DNA of 64,000 bases from contig JAEMGR010000001.1 in the NCBI GenBank assembly GCA_016458225.1, positions 248,001 to 312,000 on the forward strand. The letters are read 5' to 3'. The notes under the pieces were generated by a model. That model did no database searches, was not told the DNA's origin, and saw only the letters and a list, made by a program, of their open reading frames with translations. Origin of the DNA: Myxococcaceae bacterium JPH2. GTDB taxonomy: Bacteria; Myxococcota; Myxococcia; Myxococcales; Myxococcaceae. Position numbers and translations under genes: made by a program. This document shows, piece after piece, positions 1 to 51,621 of the stretch (within the stretch, counting starts at the first letter, position 1; every line of letters begins with the position of its first letter).

Positions 1-475
1 GATACGCGATGAGCCCCTCACCGTCCCGGTCCCAGCGCGAGTCCAAGAGGACGCCACAGAACGGAACCGACAGCGCGCCACTCTCGGGGACGAAGATGCG
101 GTCGTACCGACCGAACACCCGATGCTTCGTCACGAACAAGCGCCCGCCAATGCGCGCGCCCGGCAGCATCTTCTCGCCGTCCGCGCGGGGCGTCGCGATG
201 ACGAAGCTGTAGTTGTATCGAGCCGGGCCGGGGTGGTCCTGGATGCTGTCCACGATGACGGGGATGCGGTCCCCCGCCTTCAGCCCCAGCCGCTGCATCT
301 GGAGCTGCGAGCCCTTGGGACAGTCTCCATCCGGAGGCATCCACTTGGGCCGCTCGGGCTTCACCTCCACCGGCGCCGCGTGCCCGCACCCGACCCACGC
401 CCCAAGCATCGCCAGGACGCTCAGCCCCAACACACCTCGGCGCCAGGACGCGCGTCCTGCCAGAGGCCCGGTCAT
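1..475 (-). CDS. putative lipoprotein, 3' end beyond window
   Basis: Reading on the minus strand from an ATG at 475, an open frame runs to the window edge (158 codons) without a stop. The N-terminus has a basic stretch (RASWRRG) and a hydrophobic segment ending in a Cys at about residue 30 (AWVGC), a weak lipobox; residue -3 is Trp, so lipidation is uncertain. The body is soluble, with motifs such as GDRIPVIVDS and a beta-rich pattern. The ATG overlaps the stop of the TamA-type gene (ATGA), which implies translational coupling and membership of the TPR-ATPase-TamB-TamA operon. No family was recognised. An envelope role is inferred from the signal sequence and the neighbours. Confidence 0.7.
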   Translation of the reverse strand, partial: MTGPLAGRASWRRGVLGLSVLAMLGAWVGCGHAAPVEVKPERPKWMPPDGDCPKGSQLQMQRLGLKAGDRIPVIVDSIQDHPGPARYNYSFVIATPRADGEKMLPGARIGGRLFVTKHRVFGRYDRIFVPESGALSVPFCGVLLDSRWDRDGEGLIAY

Positions 476-3400
476 CAGAACGCCCCGATGCTGAAGTGGA
501 ACTGCGTGGGAGCCTCGTTGACGGCCTCGTCGCGGTCCAGGTTGAACCCCACGTCGAACGCGAGCGGACCGACCGGCGTCACGTAGCGCAACCCCACGCC
601 CGCCGAGTAACGCAGCTCCGTGGGGTCGAACAACGTGCGGTCCTGCCACAGGTTGCCCGCCTCGAAGAAGAGGCCCAGGTCCAGCGCCGCGAGCGCGGGC
701 ACGCGCAGCTCCGCCTTGCCCAGCGTGTAGAGCTCACCGCCCTGACTCGTGGGGAACTGTCCCGCGAGCACGGCCTTCAAATCCTCCGAGCAGCCCGAGG
801 GCGTAATCAGCGAGCGGCAATCGCTCAATCGCTGGTGCAACGCCTGCCGTACGTCCTGCGGCAGGACGCCATCCTCGCGGAAGCCTCGGAGGCTCGACGA
901 GCCGCCCAGGTAGAACAGCTTCGAGCCGATGTTCTGCGCGCCCTCCGTCAACGGCACGATGGTGCCCGCGCGTGCACTCAGCGCCACGCTCGCACGGCGC
1001 CCCAGCGGTGCGTACACACTGAGGTTGCCCGCGAGCTTCACGCTGTTGATGGGGAACGCCGGCACGCGGTCACCCGCCACGTCCGTGGGCCGCACGCTGA
1101 GCCCGCGCATGAACTCGGCGCTCGTGGTCAGCACCATGCCGCGCCGTGGGTTGGCGGGGTCATCACGGAAGTCGAGCGTCGCCGCCGGGCGCAGCGAGTG
1201 CAGCGCGAAGTCACCGAACGGGTAGCGCAGCCGCTCCTGGTCCGCCCGGTTCACTAGCTCCAGCACGCCCGCGCGCGAACGCAGCCGGTTGTTCTCCACC
1301 TCGTACTGAAGCGACAGGTTCAGCCACGACGACACGGCCCAGTCCAGGCCCGCCACCGCGGCGAACCGCGTGGACAGGTACGAAGGACGGTGCACGCGCT
1401 CGCCAATCAGGTCCAACCGCGCGCCCACTTCCAGCGGAGAGAGGAAGTAGAGCCGCGACTGAGACAGCGCCAGGTTGCCACGCCCCCCGAGCCCGCTGAG
1501 ACCATCCAGGTCCGAGTCACACGCCGCGCCCTGCGCCAACCCCGAGTCACATCCCGCGGGCCTCCGGTCCGAGCCCAGCGCCTGCGCACTCCATCCCGCG
1601 TAGTTCACCTTGCCGCGCGCGAGCACGTTGAGGCCCTTGCCATCCACGTTGCGCCAGGCCGTGTCCAACGTGACGCGAGGACCGTCGACCAGGAAGTAGC
1701 CGCCGGACACCTCGCCATCCAACCGCGCCCGCTCCTGCACCGACACGAGGACATCCTTGGAGCCCTCGCGCCGATTGGGATCCGCGAGCGACACCTCGGC
1801 CTGCTTGAAGAGGCCCAGGCGCGCCAGCCGACGCTGCCCTTCCGCCAGGTCCTCCATCGACAGCGGCGCGCCTTCCTTCAGGTCCAGGTAGGCCAGCACC
1901 ACATCCGGATCCGTGCGCGTCAGCCCCTGGATGAGCACCTTGCCCACGTGCACCCGAGGCCCCGCATCCACCTCGTAGACCACGCTCGCGGCCTTGCCCT
2001 CGCCGTCCACGGTGACCTTGTTGGCGACGTGCGCGAACAGGTAGCCCTCGCGCCCCAAGCCGCGCTCGGTCGCGGCGCGCACCTGCTCCACGCGCTCGAA
2101 GCTCAGCGGCGTGCCTTGGCGCAACATCGCGCGGGTCCATTCCGAGTGGACGTCCGCGGGCATGCCCTCGAAACGCACGTCGCGCACGAGCGCTCGCGGC
2201 CCTTCCTCCACGTCGAAGTCCGCCACCGCCGTGTGCTGGACGGTGTCCATCGTCAGGCCCCGGAAGGTCACCATCGCGGAGGAGAAGCCCTGCTCGCGAT
2301 AGGCCGTCGTCATGCCGTCCGCCGCGTCCAACCACGCCTCTTCCACGTAGACCGTGGAGGGATCCGGCGGCGGCTCCACGCCCTGAATGTCCGGCGCGTG
2401 GCGGCCCTCCATCGACAGCGGGTCATCGCGCAGGGGCAGGTCCAGCTCGGGCCGCGTCTCGCACGCCGCGACGCGCGCGGTGAGCTGTGCACGCAGGGCC
2501 CGGCTGGACACCGCCGTGTTGCCGTGGAAGCGCACCTCGGTCACGCGCAGGGGATGGCCTTCCTCCACGTCGAACGTGAGCGCGGCGACCGCCCCGTCCT
2601 CTCGCTCCACCGAGTGCGCACGCACGCGCGCCGAATGGAAGCCGCGCTGTCGGTAGAAGGCCTCCAGCTTGCGCGCGAGCCGCGCCTCCACCACGTCATC
2701 CAGCGTGTCCTCCCCCTCGTAGGAGGCGACACGCGCCAGGAGGACATCGGGCATGCGGTGATTGCCCCGGAAGCGCATCGTGAAGCGAGGCCCCGCGCTC
2801 AACGGCACGGCCACCGTCGCCCCGCCCTCCGCCACCGTCACGGTGGGCACGCCCACGCGAGCCCGCCAGCGATGCTCCTCGCGCAGAGACACGCGCAGTC
2901 GCTCCAGCCCGGCCTCCAAGCTGCCCCGGTCAAAGACATCCCCAGGACGCATGCCGAGCGTGTCCATCAGTCGCGGCAGCGGGAGATCCGACGCCCCGAG
3001 GAACGTCACCTGCCGCACGCGCGTGGGAAGGCCCTCCTCCAGGCGCAGCGTCACAGCCACCCCGCCCCCCGGCACGGGCGCCTGCGACACGTCCACCTTC
3101 ACCGCGTCATAGCCGCGAGCCCGATAGGCCTCCTGCACCGCGCCGACCGCGGACTCCAGCTCCTCCGGATCCAGCGGGCCGCCCTCCAGCAGGTTGCTGG
3201 CCTCCAGCACTTCGCCGGTCGTGAGGACCTGATTGCCGTGAACCGTGACGGACGAGAGCCGCAGCAAGGGCGTGAGCTGGAAGACGAGCCGCACACCTCC
3301 GGGCACGTCCTCCTTGCGCGCCACCACGTCCGAGAAACGCCCCGTGGCCCACAGCCGCTCCACCGAGCGGCGCACCGCGCTTGGCGAGAGCGCCTGTCCC

Positions 3401-48143: not shown

Positions 48144-48764
48144 ATGCCCCGCCCTCCTCTGCTGCCCGACCCGGTCGGACTCAAGTTCGTCACCCTGGAC
48201 ACCCCCCCGGACTGGGATGCCGAGTTCGGCTTCACCGGCCCCCTGGAGCTGGAGATTGGCTCGGGCGCCGGAGGGCACGCGCTGGAGTACTGCCGCCGCA
48301 ATCCCACCGTGCGCTTCGTCGCCTTCGAGTGGCGCAAGAAGTACGCGCGCGACACCCAGTCCCGCGGCGAGAAGCTCGGCCTGAAGAACCTGCGCGTCAT
48401 CGAGTCCGACGCCCGCTTCGTCGTCCCGCGCATCTTCGCGTCCGGCTCCCTGTCCTGCATCCACCTCCAGTTCCCGGACCCCTGGTGGAAGCGCTCGCAT
48501 GCCAAGCGCGCCGTCATCCAGCCCGAGTTCACCCAGCTCCTCCTGGACAAGCTCGCCCCCGGCGGCCGCTTCGACATGCGCACCGACGTCCAGGACCGCG
48601 GGGTCACCATGCTCTCCATCCTGGAATCCTCAGGATTCCAGAACCCCTTGGGTTCCGGCGTTTTCCATCCTTATGACCCGGAGGAGGTGCCCTCGACGCG
48701 CGAGCGGCGCTATCTGGCGAGCGGGGAGCCCGTCTACAGGGCACGGCTGGTGAAGCCCGGCTGA
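48144..48764 (+). CDS. trmB: tRNA (guanine-N7)-methyltransferase TrmB
   Basis: The 206-residue enzyme makes m7G46 in tRNA. Motif I LELEIGSGAGGHALE (about 34-48), FEWRKKYA, and the diagnostic HLQFPDPWWKRSHAKRA segment (about 107-123) are all present, as is the C-terminal TRERRYLASGEPVYRA. The length is normal. A perfect 9-base inverted repeat (48621-48641) and a 6-base one (48642-48655) lie inside the coding sequence, around codons 160-170. Confidence 0.95.
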   Translation: MPRPPLLPDPVGLKFVTLDTPPDWDAEFGFTGPLELEIGSGAGGHALEYCRRNPTVRFVAFEWRKKYARDTQSRGEKLGLKNLRVIESDARFVVPRIFASGSLSCIHLQFPDPWWKRSHAKRAVIQPEFTQLLLDKLAPGGRFDMRTDVQDRGVTMLSILESSGFQNPLGSGVFHPYDPEEVPSTRERRYLASGEPVYRARLVKPG

Positions 48765-48871: not shown

Positions 48872-49924
48872 ATGGGAGACGGCGACAGGAAGAAGACGCA
48901 GGAGGTCACCCGTCGATCACCGCCCGGCAACGAGTTCATGGGTCGCACCGTGTTGCTGGTGGACGATGACCCGGCCCAGCTCGCCCATGTCCGCGACGGC
49001 CTGTCCCCCTACGGCTACACCTTTCGCGAGGCGAACAACGGCGCCCAGGCGCTGTCCGCCATCCGCGAGAGCCGGCCCGACCTCATCCTGATGGACGTGG
49101 AGATGCCCGGGCTGGGCGGCGTGGAGGTGTGCCGCATCGTCAAGGCGAACGCGGGCGAGGGCGGCTTCGGCTTCATCCCCATCATCCTGATGACGGCGCG
49201 GCAGGCGGCCGGCAAGGTGGAGGGGCTGGAGCTGGGCGCGGACGACTACCTGGTGAAGCCCTTCGACATGCTGGAGCTGGGCGCGCGGGTGAAGTCCATG
49301 CTGCGCCTGAAGGTGCTGCAGGACGCGCTGGTGGAGAAGAACCGCGAGTTGGACAAGGCCAACAAGGAGCTGGCGCGCAAGCGCGAGGAGTTGCTCGCGC
49401 TCAGCCGCACGGACGCGCTCACGGGCCTGTTCAACCGGCGATATTTCGAGGAGCGGATGAACGAGGAGTTCCTCCGCGCGCGGCGCTACCAGTCCCACCT
49501 GTCGCTGGTGATGCTGGACATCGACCACTTCAAGCGCATCAACGACACCTTCGGGCACCCCTTCGGAGATGAGGTGCTCAAGGCCGTGGCCCAGACGGCG
49601 CGCTCGCGGCTGCGCGAGGTGGATCTGCTGGCGCGCTATGGCGGCGAGGAGTTCATCGCCCTGCTCCCCGAGGCCGCTCCCACCGATGCCCTGCGCGCGT
49701 GCGAGCGCGTGCGCGAGGCCATCGAGAACCTGGAGGTCGTGCACCCGAGCGCGGACGGGACGCGACAGAGCGTCCGCCTGACCGCATCCCTGGGGCTGGC
49801 GACCGTGCCCGCCACGGACCTGCCCAGTGCGGAGACGCTGCTGCGCGCCGCCGACGCGAGCCTCTACGAAGCCAAGGGCGCGGGCCGCAATCGCGTCCAC
49901 CAGCATCCGGGCGGCCTCACCTGA
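48872..49924 (+). CDS. response regulator diguanylate cyclase (REC-GGDEF)
   Basis: The 350-residue protein has a receiver domain (phospho-Asp75 in LILMDVEMP, KPFD conserved), a short coiled coil (about 150-180) and a GGDEF domain with the intact active site GGEEF (about 257-261). The inhibitory I-site RxxD (REVD, about 248-251) sits exactly five residues before it, so product inhibition by c-di-GMP is expected. It should make c-di-GMP in response to an unknown kinase. The ATG at 48872 follows a GGGGG stretch; an ATG at 48938 would start right at the receiver domain. PilB's MshEN domain is a possible local effector. Confidence 0.92.
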   Translation: MGDGDRKKTQEVTRRSPPGNEFMGRTVLLVDDDPAQLAHVRDGLSPYGYTFREANNGAQALSAIRESRPDLILMDVEMPGLGGVEVCRIVKANAGEGGFGFIPIILMTARQAAGKVEGLELGADDYLVKPFDMLELGARVKSMLRLKVLQDALVEKNRELDKANKELARKREELLALSRTDALTGLFNRRYFEERMNEEFLRARRYQSHLSLVMLDIDHFKRINDTFGHPFGDEVLKAVAQTARSRLREVDLLARYGGEEFIALLPEAAPTDALRACERVREAIENLEVVHPSADGTRQSVRLTASLGLATVPATDLPSAETLLRAADASLYEAKGAGRNRVHQHPGGLT

Positions 49925-49964: not shown

Positions 49965-50399
49965 ATGCGCGCGACCTCCACAACGACCTGTCTGTTGCTG
50001 GTCCTGCTCGCCCTGGGCGGCTGCAGCGTGGGTCAGCCCGACACGCCCATGAAGGCCTACCGGACCTTCCACGGGCACGCGCAGCGCGGCTTGAGCCAGC
50101 GCGATGAGCAAGACTTGCAGAAGGCATACGCTGCGCTGTCACAAGGGACTCAGCAGACGCTGGCGAAGCGCGCGCAGCAGGTGAGCGAAGCCTCGGGTGG
50201 GACGGTGAAGCCCGAACCGCTCGCGCTCTTCTTCGCGAATGTCCCCCCGCCTCCCGATGTTACGGAGGTCTCGCTGGTGCGCCAGGAGGGCGACGAAGCC
50301 ACCGTGCTCGTTCGCTCATCGGGTGGCACGAGCGAGGTTCGGATGGTGAGGGAGCCGTCCGGATGGAAAGTCGACCTCTCAGCATCCCTCCAGCCGTGA
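49965..50399 (+). CDS. small lipoprotein, hypothetical
   Basis: The 144-residue protein has a lipoprotein signal peptide (LLLVLLALGGC, Cys at about 22). The remainder looks like a DUF4878/NTF2-like fold: PMKAYRTFHGHAQ... and a C-terminal beta pattern ATVLVRSSGGTSEVRMVREPSGWKVDL, typical of small lipoproteins that bind unknown ligands. It lies 40 bases after the diguanylate cyclase and 43 before the proline-rich gene, all on the plus strand. Function unknown. Confidence 0.8.
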   Translation: MRATSTTTCLLLVLLALGGCSVGQPDTPMKAYRTFHGHAQRGLSQRDEQDLQKAYAALSQGTQQTLAKRAQQVSEASGGTVKPEPLALFFANVPPPPDVTEVSLVRQEGDEATVLVRSSGGTSEVRMVREPSGWKVDLSASLQP

Positions 50400-50442: not shown

Positions 50443-51621
50443 GTGAACGATCGGAAGACACGGCGGGTGGTCCCCGCAGTCGAAGTCATCCGGCGCCCGG
50501 GCACGACGCCCGGAGGCGCTTCGACGACTCCACCCGCGACCCCTTCGCCCTCGCCGCGGCCCACGCCGACTCCTCGGCCCGTGGGCGCGTCGCCCACTCC
50601 CTCGCCCGTCCCGCGACCCACGGGCGTGGCTCCCACGCCAAGGCCGCCGCAGCCCGTGGCCCCGGCCGCCCCAGCGGCGTCCTCGGAGCCCGTGCCCGTG
50701 GTGGAGGACACGTCCGCGCAGGCAGCGGCGCGCCCCACGCCTCGGCCTCTGACCGGCGCGGCGCCTCGGCCGATGAGTCCGCGCCCGCCCGGTGCCGCTC
50801 CGTCCGGGCCGCGTCCGGGAGGCTTTGGTGGAGGCCGCTTCGCGCCTCGGCCCAGCACGCCCCGTCCGCCGCCCACGCCCGAGCAGATTCTCGCGCTGGC
50901 CACGCGCGAGCACGTGCCCGCGCGCATCGCCAAGGGCGAGCTCGAGGGCAAGATGAAGTGCCGCATCTGGCGCAAGCTCCACGCCGAGGAGGCCAAGCGG
51001 TTCGATCAGGTCTACGAGCTGATGGGCCAGAACTCGGCGCTGTCGCTGGGCGATGCCTTCGGCGTGCTGCAGAGCGGCCTGACCGTGGCCGAGTTCATGG
51101 CGCGCAAGGAGCGCACGCAGCGCAAGGCCGCCATCAAGCAGGCGCGCGGCGAGGTGGACAACGCCACCGTGTCGGACTTCCTGTCCACACTCATGCAGCA
51201 GAAGGCCGAGCTGTCCGTCGTGCTGGCCGAGCGTTCACTTCTGGACACCCTGGTGACGGAAGAGGCCATCGCGCTGACGCTGGAGCGCACAGGCCGGATG
51301 GAGAAGCTCCAGGTGGTGCTCATCGCGCGGCGCGCGGACTGGGAGCGGTTGCTGCCGGCCGTGGAGCGCGACGCGAAGCTCACGCAGAAGCCGGCGCAGG
51401 TGGCGCGGCAGCCGGACAAGCGGCCCTTCTCGGATCCGCGTCCGTTCCTGCCTCACCTGGGCGACGAGGTGAAGCTGGTGCTGCGCAACGGCATCACGGT
51501 GCAGGCGCCCATCATGCACGTGGGGCGCTTCGACCTGCTGTTGGGTGAGCCGGGACACGAGCTGTTCGTCCCGCTGCACGCCCTGCTCCGCTTCGAGCCC
51601 GTGGCCACGCCCGAGGCCTGA
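50443..51621 (+). CDS. proline-rich protein with C-terminal Hfq/Sm-like domain
   Basis: This 392-residue protein is not a recognised family. Residues about 10-150 are Pro/Thr/Ala/Arg-rich low complexity with PTPRP-type repeats. Residues about 150-325 are helical (PEQILALATREHVP..., DFLSTLMQQK). Residues about 341-388 resemble an Hfq/Sm fold: VKLVLRNGITVQA aligns with the Hfq Sm1 strand (N349-G350), and FVPLHALLRF with the Sm2 YKHA motif (His379-Ala380); only one extra residue is needed in between. The Lys of YKHA is Leu here. A role as an RNA-binding or polyA/U-binding protein is inferred from this similarity alone. The start is a GTG at 50443. Confidence 0.75.
   Translation: MNDRKTRRVVPAVEVIRRPGTTPGGASTTPPATPSPSPRPTPTPRPVGASPTPSPVPRPTGVAPTPRPPQPVAPAAPAASSEPVPVVEDTSAQAAARPTPRPLTGAAPRPMSPRPPGAAPSGPRPGGFGGGRFAPRPSTPRPPPTPEQILALATREHVPARIAKGELEGKMKCRIWRKLHAEEAKRFDQVYELMGQNSALSLGDAFGVLQSGLTVAEFMARKERTQRKAAIKQARGEVDNATVSDFLSTLMQQKAELSVVLAERSLLDTLVTEEAIALTLERTGRMEKLQVVLIARRADWERLLPAVERDAKLTQKPAQVARQPDKRPFSDPRPFLPHLGDEVKLVLRNGITVQAPIMHVGRFDLLLGEPGHELFVPLHALLRFEPVATPEA

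Follow-up and report, generated by a model that had tools for sequence, protein, structure and literature searches.

The window analyzed here is a stretch of 64,000 nucleotides from Myxococcaceae bacterium JPH2 (contig JAEMGR010000001.1, positions 248,001 to 312,000). At positions 50443..51621 of the window (+ strand, stop codon included), there is an open reading frame, which starts with GTG and encodes a protein of 392 amino acid residues. This open reading frame is a real gene (hereafter the tandem-Sm gene): it is conserved, and the dN/dS values of approximately 0.02-0.29 in each folded domain show purifying selection. We searched genomes with a profile (A1) built from 38 relatives of the window protein. 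The gene was found in 93 of 96 Myxococcaceae genomes, and three reduced genomes of 2.1-2.7 Mb retain it. Among 195 Myxococcota genomes, the profile did not match any genome outside the Myxococcaceae. The nearest relative is the protein of Citreicoccus inhibens (95% identity), and other relatives are encoded in Myxococcus, Corallococcus, Pyxidicoccus, Hyalangium, Archangium and uncultured Cystobacterineae. A copy resembling those of Myxococcus, with an overall identity of 65%, is located on a 1-Mb contig whose record carries the name Comamonas sp. KCTC 72670; this record is probably from a myxobacterium under a wrong label. No relatives were found in the phages, plasmids and viral contigs searched, and an Rfam scan of the window gave no matches. 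The initial annotation proposed an undescribed Hfq-like protein. This proposal is supported: whole-protein scans with Pfam, NCBIfam and PHROGs gave nothing informative, the protein lies outside every curated family, and no description of it was found in the literature searched.

Upstream of the tandem-Sm gene, trmB (tRNA guanine-N7 methyltransferase; 48144..48764, +), a gene for a response regulator with a GGDEF (diguanylate cyclase) domain (48872-49924) and a gene for a small predicted lipoprotein (49965..50399, +) are present. The latter two are conserved near neighbors. The end of the lipoprotein gene is separated from the start of the tandem-Sm gene by 43 bases, and a scan of this gap for sigma-70 promoters and terminators detected no promoter-like or terminator-like site. 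Near relatives keep the order ribF, trmB, response-regulator/GGDEF gene, lipoprotein gene, tandem-Sm gene, cupredoxin gene and dinG-like helicase gene. Of this set, the most divergent loci retain just ribF, trmB and the tandem-Sm gene as a recognizable group, and the response-regulator/GGDEF gene was not recognized in them. The corresponding locus of Anaeromyxobacter was also examined; it contains no counterpart of the gene, and its order is trmB, lipoprotein gene and alaS-like gene.

The N-terminal region (residues 1-141; 50443..50865, +) is rich in Pro and Arg (40 Pro and 18 Lys/Arg against 5 Asp/Glu) and ends in the Gly/Arg-rich segment GPRPGGFGGGRF. Its length and sequence differ among species, and from its composition it is probably disordered. 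Eleven draft contigs start or stop within the Pro-rich stretch, and draft gene calls are likely truncated there; in one further draft contig, a kinase-like open frame continues directly into the Pro-rich part, probably through misassembly. Near the start of the region, a VEVIRRP motif is located at residues 13-19 (50479..50499, +). Of 24 long loci, 22 (those of termite-gut metagenome-assembled genomes among them) have a pattern of the type [VIL][EQ]?[VI][IVL]R[RK][PG] a short distance behind the start codon, and the motif was also recognized by eye in locus L023. The motif stays while the Pro-rich stretch after it diverges. When the genome was searched for the exact 7-residue pattern, no second occurrence came up. 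The motif is a candidate docking peptide.

The structure of residues 142-392 was predicted by AlphaFold2 with 38 sequences (mean pLDDT 88, pTM 0.74). The model consists of a helical domain (D0) followed by two units (D1 and D2), each comprising a helix and five strands. D0 (residues 142-238; 50866..51156, +) is the most conserved part of the protein, with 78% mean column identity in our alignment (A4) and invariant Arg, Lys, Trp and His residues. When D0 was modeled alone, the pLDDT was moderate (78). Fold searches with D0 gave no Foldseek match at E<1 and a best Z of 3.6 in VIA-align, and its profile matched only VAV2 among PDB sequences (E 0.36, not significant).

D2 (residues 329-387; 51427..51603, +) is the C-terminal Sm/Hfq-like domain. 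The segment VKLVLRNGITVQ...FVPLHALLRF is located within the final 60 residues, and its alignment with E. coli Hfq contains one single-residue gap, immediately before the Sm2 strand. When 177,635 PDB sequences were searched by hmmsearch with the family profile, ten sequences were obtained at E<=10 and all ten were Hfq; the best were archaeal Hfq MJ1435 (E 0.002) and B. subtilis Hfq (E 0.039). With a D2-only profile, the best E value was 0.0004 and the top ten were Hfq throughout. In hhalign, a Hfq profile of five sequences matched with a probability of 90-93% (93% across 54 columns) and a score of 33-37, and D2 shares approximately 31% identity with the first sequence of this profile. As a control, columns were restricted to the window sequence: the score was 33.5, whereas 200 column shuffles averaged 9.6 and never exceeded 17.9, and the reversed profile scored 9.0. 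Thus, the alignment with E. coli Hfq, the profile searches and the shuffles bear out the initial annotation of a Hfq-like C-terminus with one extra residue before FVPLHALLRF. The Sm barrel, which had been left to structure prediction, was obtained as well: D2 in the AlphaFold2 model has a helix (192-197) and five strands (201-245, model numbering), which is the Sm fold, and the Foldseek matches of the model in PDB were almost all Hfq (23-32% identity). Because 23-32% identity fits D2 and the values for D1 are only 8-18% (see below), we assign these Foldseek matches to D2. The first PDB row, Pyrobaculum virus ORF137, was set aside (rmsd 14 Å), as were the top structural rows of a viral library (rmsd at least 10 Å). 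On the evidence of the profile comparisons, D2 is homologous to Hfq. In Myxococcota outside the Myxococcaceae, D2-like domains gave chance-level scores only (best E 0.024 across 28 positions).

Although homologous, D2 is far from the curated Hfq families. TIGR02383 (Hfq) is the top NCBIfam family for D2 members, far below its cut-off of 61.7 bits: the window D2 scores 11.4 bits (E 0.22) and the best member has an E value of 0.004. For PF17209, the best E value is 0.078, and the cut-off of 27 bits is likewise not reached. The NG turn of Sm1 is present: all 38 sequences share R20-N21-G22 in D2, and the preceding Leu is nearly invariant. In contrast, Sm2 reads PLHA instead of Y/F-KHA: the His and the P-x-H pattern are invariant and the Ala is nearly so. 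In the uridine-rich RNA pocket of Hfq, which is formed by Gln8, Phe42, Lys56 and His57 (PMC5379935), the Phe42 equivalent is Phe or Tyr in all sequences of D2 and the His57 equivalent is invariant, but Lys56 is replaced by Leu, and the neighboring Tyr55 by Pro. Because Phe42 and His57 are kept and Lys56 is replaced, the pocket is only half kept. A rim arginine patch of the RRER type is absent from D2; its helix region, DPRPFLPHLGDE, holds a single conserved Arg. D2 of the window protein contains 5 Lys/Arg and 7 Asp/Glu and does not have a net positive charge. Since D2 scores below the curated cut-offs and the protein lacks the full Sm2 motif, the rim patch and the single-domain layout, we do not file the protein as Hfq.

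The part between D0 and D2 contains a further barrel. The initial annotation described a helical middle; this description is correct for D0, but the second Sm-like barrel that follows, detected by AlphaFold2 and VIA-align, had been missed. This barrel, D1 (residues 238-299; 51154..51339, +), has a local pLDDT of approximately 92-96. When D1 (model residues 97-158) was placed on Hfq structures by VIA-align, Z values of 8.8-9.8 and rmsd values of 1.3-3.1 Å (mostly 1.3-2 Å) over 57-65 residues were obtained at 8-18% identity. The Hfq core was nearly wholly covered, and all 50 among the matches listed were Hfq or Hfq-containing complexes. By sequence, the probability for D1 against the Hfq profile was 0.4%, PDB sequences gave no match, the NG and H motifs are absent, and there is no homology between D1 and D2; an apparent D1-D2 match was rejected because it came from an overlap between two alignments. 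Because the sequence gives no support, the identity of D1 is taken from the predicted structure. According to this model, D1 is a cryptic, degenerate Sm barrel, and the chain thus carries two Sm barrels, D1 by fold and D2 by sequence and fold. The presence of D1 changes the likely stoichiometry of a ring.

D1 and D2 are joined by a conserved linker (KP..VARQP.RRP.SDPR). In two Myxococcus genomes, paralogues possess D1, the linker and D2 after a wholly different N-terminal part. Because the tandem is shared behind unlike N-terminal domains, we regard D1-D2 as one unit. The paralogues are located at 1902-3134 (+) of locus L081 and 1587-2747 (-) of locus L082, and their different N-terminal domain comprises approximately 200 residues. 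In L082, the adjoining gene at 400-1647 (-) matches DUF3800 and its open reading frame overlaps that of the paralogue. Four other matches to the module (L083, L084, G120:C301 and G082:C59) are partial or interrupted by stop codons, and are apparently decayed copies.

We compared the protein with known Sm systems. Like Hfq (PF17209, TIGR02383; the nearest being archaeal MJ1435 and B. subtilis Hfq), D2 has an N-terminal helix and a five-stranded Sm fold, and the L-x-NG turn, the Phe at position 42 and the H-A of the Sm2 motif are common to both. It differs in scoring far under the curated cut-offs, in having PLHA for YKHA and in lacking the rim RRER patch, although the rim patch is also reduced in B. 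subtilis and S. aureus Hfq. Furthermore, Hfq is a short single-Sm chain with a C-terminal tail, whereas the 392-residue protein has a helical domain, a second barrel and an N-terminal tail. Two Sm domains per chain are found in Hfq of Zymomonas mobilis and other Sphingomonadales, and three chains per ring have been suggested (PMC2877685). The Sphingomonadales are unrelated to the Myxococcaceae, and both domains of their Hfq are recognizable by sequence, with no D0 reported; the myxobacterial protein has a cryptic D1 and carries D0 and a Pro-rich tail in addition. Cyanobacterial Hfq is likewise a divergent Sm protein with an altered RNA-binding pocket, and in the VIA-align list for D1 the Synechocystis structure 3hfo comes first, level with many other Hfq structures; however, cyanobacterial Hfq is a single small Sm domain without fused domains. 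In cyanobacteria, Hfq cooperates with the machinery of type IV pili. Borrelia BB0268 (FlgV), once called an atypical Hfq, is neither Hfq nor RNA-binding, and its CLIP-seq or co-immunoprecipitation gave no RNA enrichment over the untagged control (PMC11607428). Because of this precedent, caution is required for a Hfq-like function; BB0268 does not have a Sm fold, whereas for the tandem-Sm protein such a fold is predicted and homology is seen at the level of profiles.

The initial annotation left open whether the organism has a canonical Hfq. A PF17209 profile search answered this: no canonical Hfq was found in the source genome or in the 195 Myxococcota genomes, and the same profile recovered the distant archaeal Hfq of M. 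jannaschii in the control set. Both the source genome and 20 relatives (21 genomes in all) lack ProQ and CsrA. Two papers on the M. xanthus small RNA Pxr state that myxobacteria have no known Hfq homologue and propose that a different protein may serve as the chaperone of Pxr (PMC5684412, PMC5568312). Among the proteins that could fill this role in these social bacteria, the tandem-Sm protein is the foremost candidate.

We judge it somewhat probable that the protein is a Myxococcaceae-specific divergent Sm/Hfq protein, which forms an RNA-binding ring of three chains and acts as a general RNA chaperone or small-RNA stabilizer. In the order of its parts (the conserved N-terminal motif, the Pro/Arg-rich tail, basic D0, degenerate D1, the linker and Hfq-like D2), three chains with two Sm barrels each would give a six-barrel ring, and this ring would bind single-stranded RNA. 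In this ring, the conserved pocket, with the equivalents of Hfq Phe42 and His57, would come from D2, and D0 and the Gly/Arg- and Pro/Arg-rich tail may add low-specificity binding of RNA or partners. The role would be that of a general RNA chaperone or small-RNA-stabilizing protein in bacteria without Hfq. This reading is supported by the homology of D2, the fold of D1, the tandem unit, the conservation, the absence of Hfq, ProQ and CsrA, the Pxr papers and the Zymomonas precedent. It is weakened because D2 keeps only a partial uridine pocket without the rim patch and net positive charge, because D1 has neither sequence support nor the NG and H motifs, and because the gene is limited to one family and the sister families are viable without it and without Hfq. 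A more far-reaching idea, which is possible but doubtful, is that a Hfq-lineage Sm domain was rebuilt in the ancestor of the Myxococcaceae into a large tandem-Sm RNA chaperone, and that this chaperone, as a three-chain pseudo-hexamer, took over from Hfq (and ProQ/CsrA) the part of global matchmaker for small RNAs; the developmental small RNA Pxr would be one of its clients.

Alternatively, the Sm-fold ring may bind proteins instead of RNA, with the N-terminal motif and the Pro-rich tail as partner-binding parts. The partly kept uridine pocket, in which the counterparts of Lys56 and Tyr55 are lost, and the strong conservation of the short N-terminal motif suit this idea, and PMC9037510, quoting an earlier study, describes cyanobacterial Hfq as a structural homologue with altered RNA-binding properties. 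We consider it unlikely, because a protein-only use would not demand an invariant His57 equivalent and only Phe or Tyr for Phe42; moreover, the basic helical domain and the Gly/Arg-rich tail suit nucleic acid binding. A role on tRNA or ribosomes, as a maturation or translation factor linked functionally with trmB and not on small regulatory RNAs, seems quite unlikely: trmB is close by in every long locus examined, the most divergent included, and classic hfq adjoins the tRNA modification gene miaA (PMC11607428), but neighborhood alone is weak evidence, the genes in between vary and Anaeromyxobacter has trmB without the Sm gene. Convergence of D2, as another small SH3-like barrel, on Hfq is very improbable: such barrels are common, single sequences score below all curated cut-offs and the RimP SH3 domain (PF17384) is among equally weak Pfam matches, but all ten PDB sequence matches and almost all Foldseek matches are Hfq, the hhalign score is far above those of 200 shuffles, TIGR02383 is the best NCBIfam family, and RNG and His are invariant at the Sm1 and Sm2 positions.

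The tandem-Sm protein is a new variant inside the Sm/Hfq superfamily, and it probably works like a Hfq-type protein. Where the Pxr papers (PMC5684412, PMC5568312) suppose an unnamed substitute for Hfq, a specific conserved gene can now be named. If the protein does bind RNA, the view that Hfq-type proteins are missing from myxobacteria would be wrong at the level of the fold. The protein would then also illustrate the extent to which a Sm ring can be remodeled, by tandem fusion, unlike barrels and an added helical domain.
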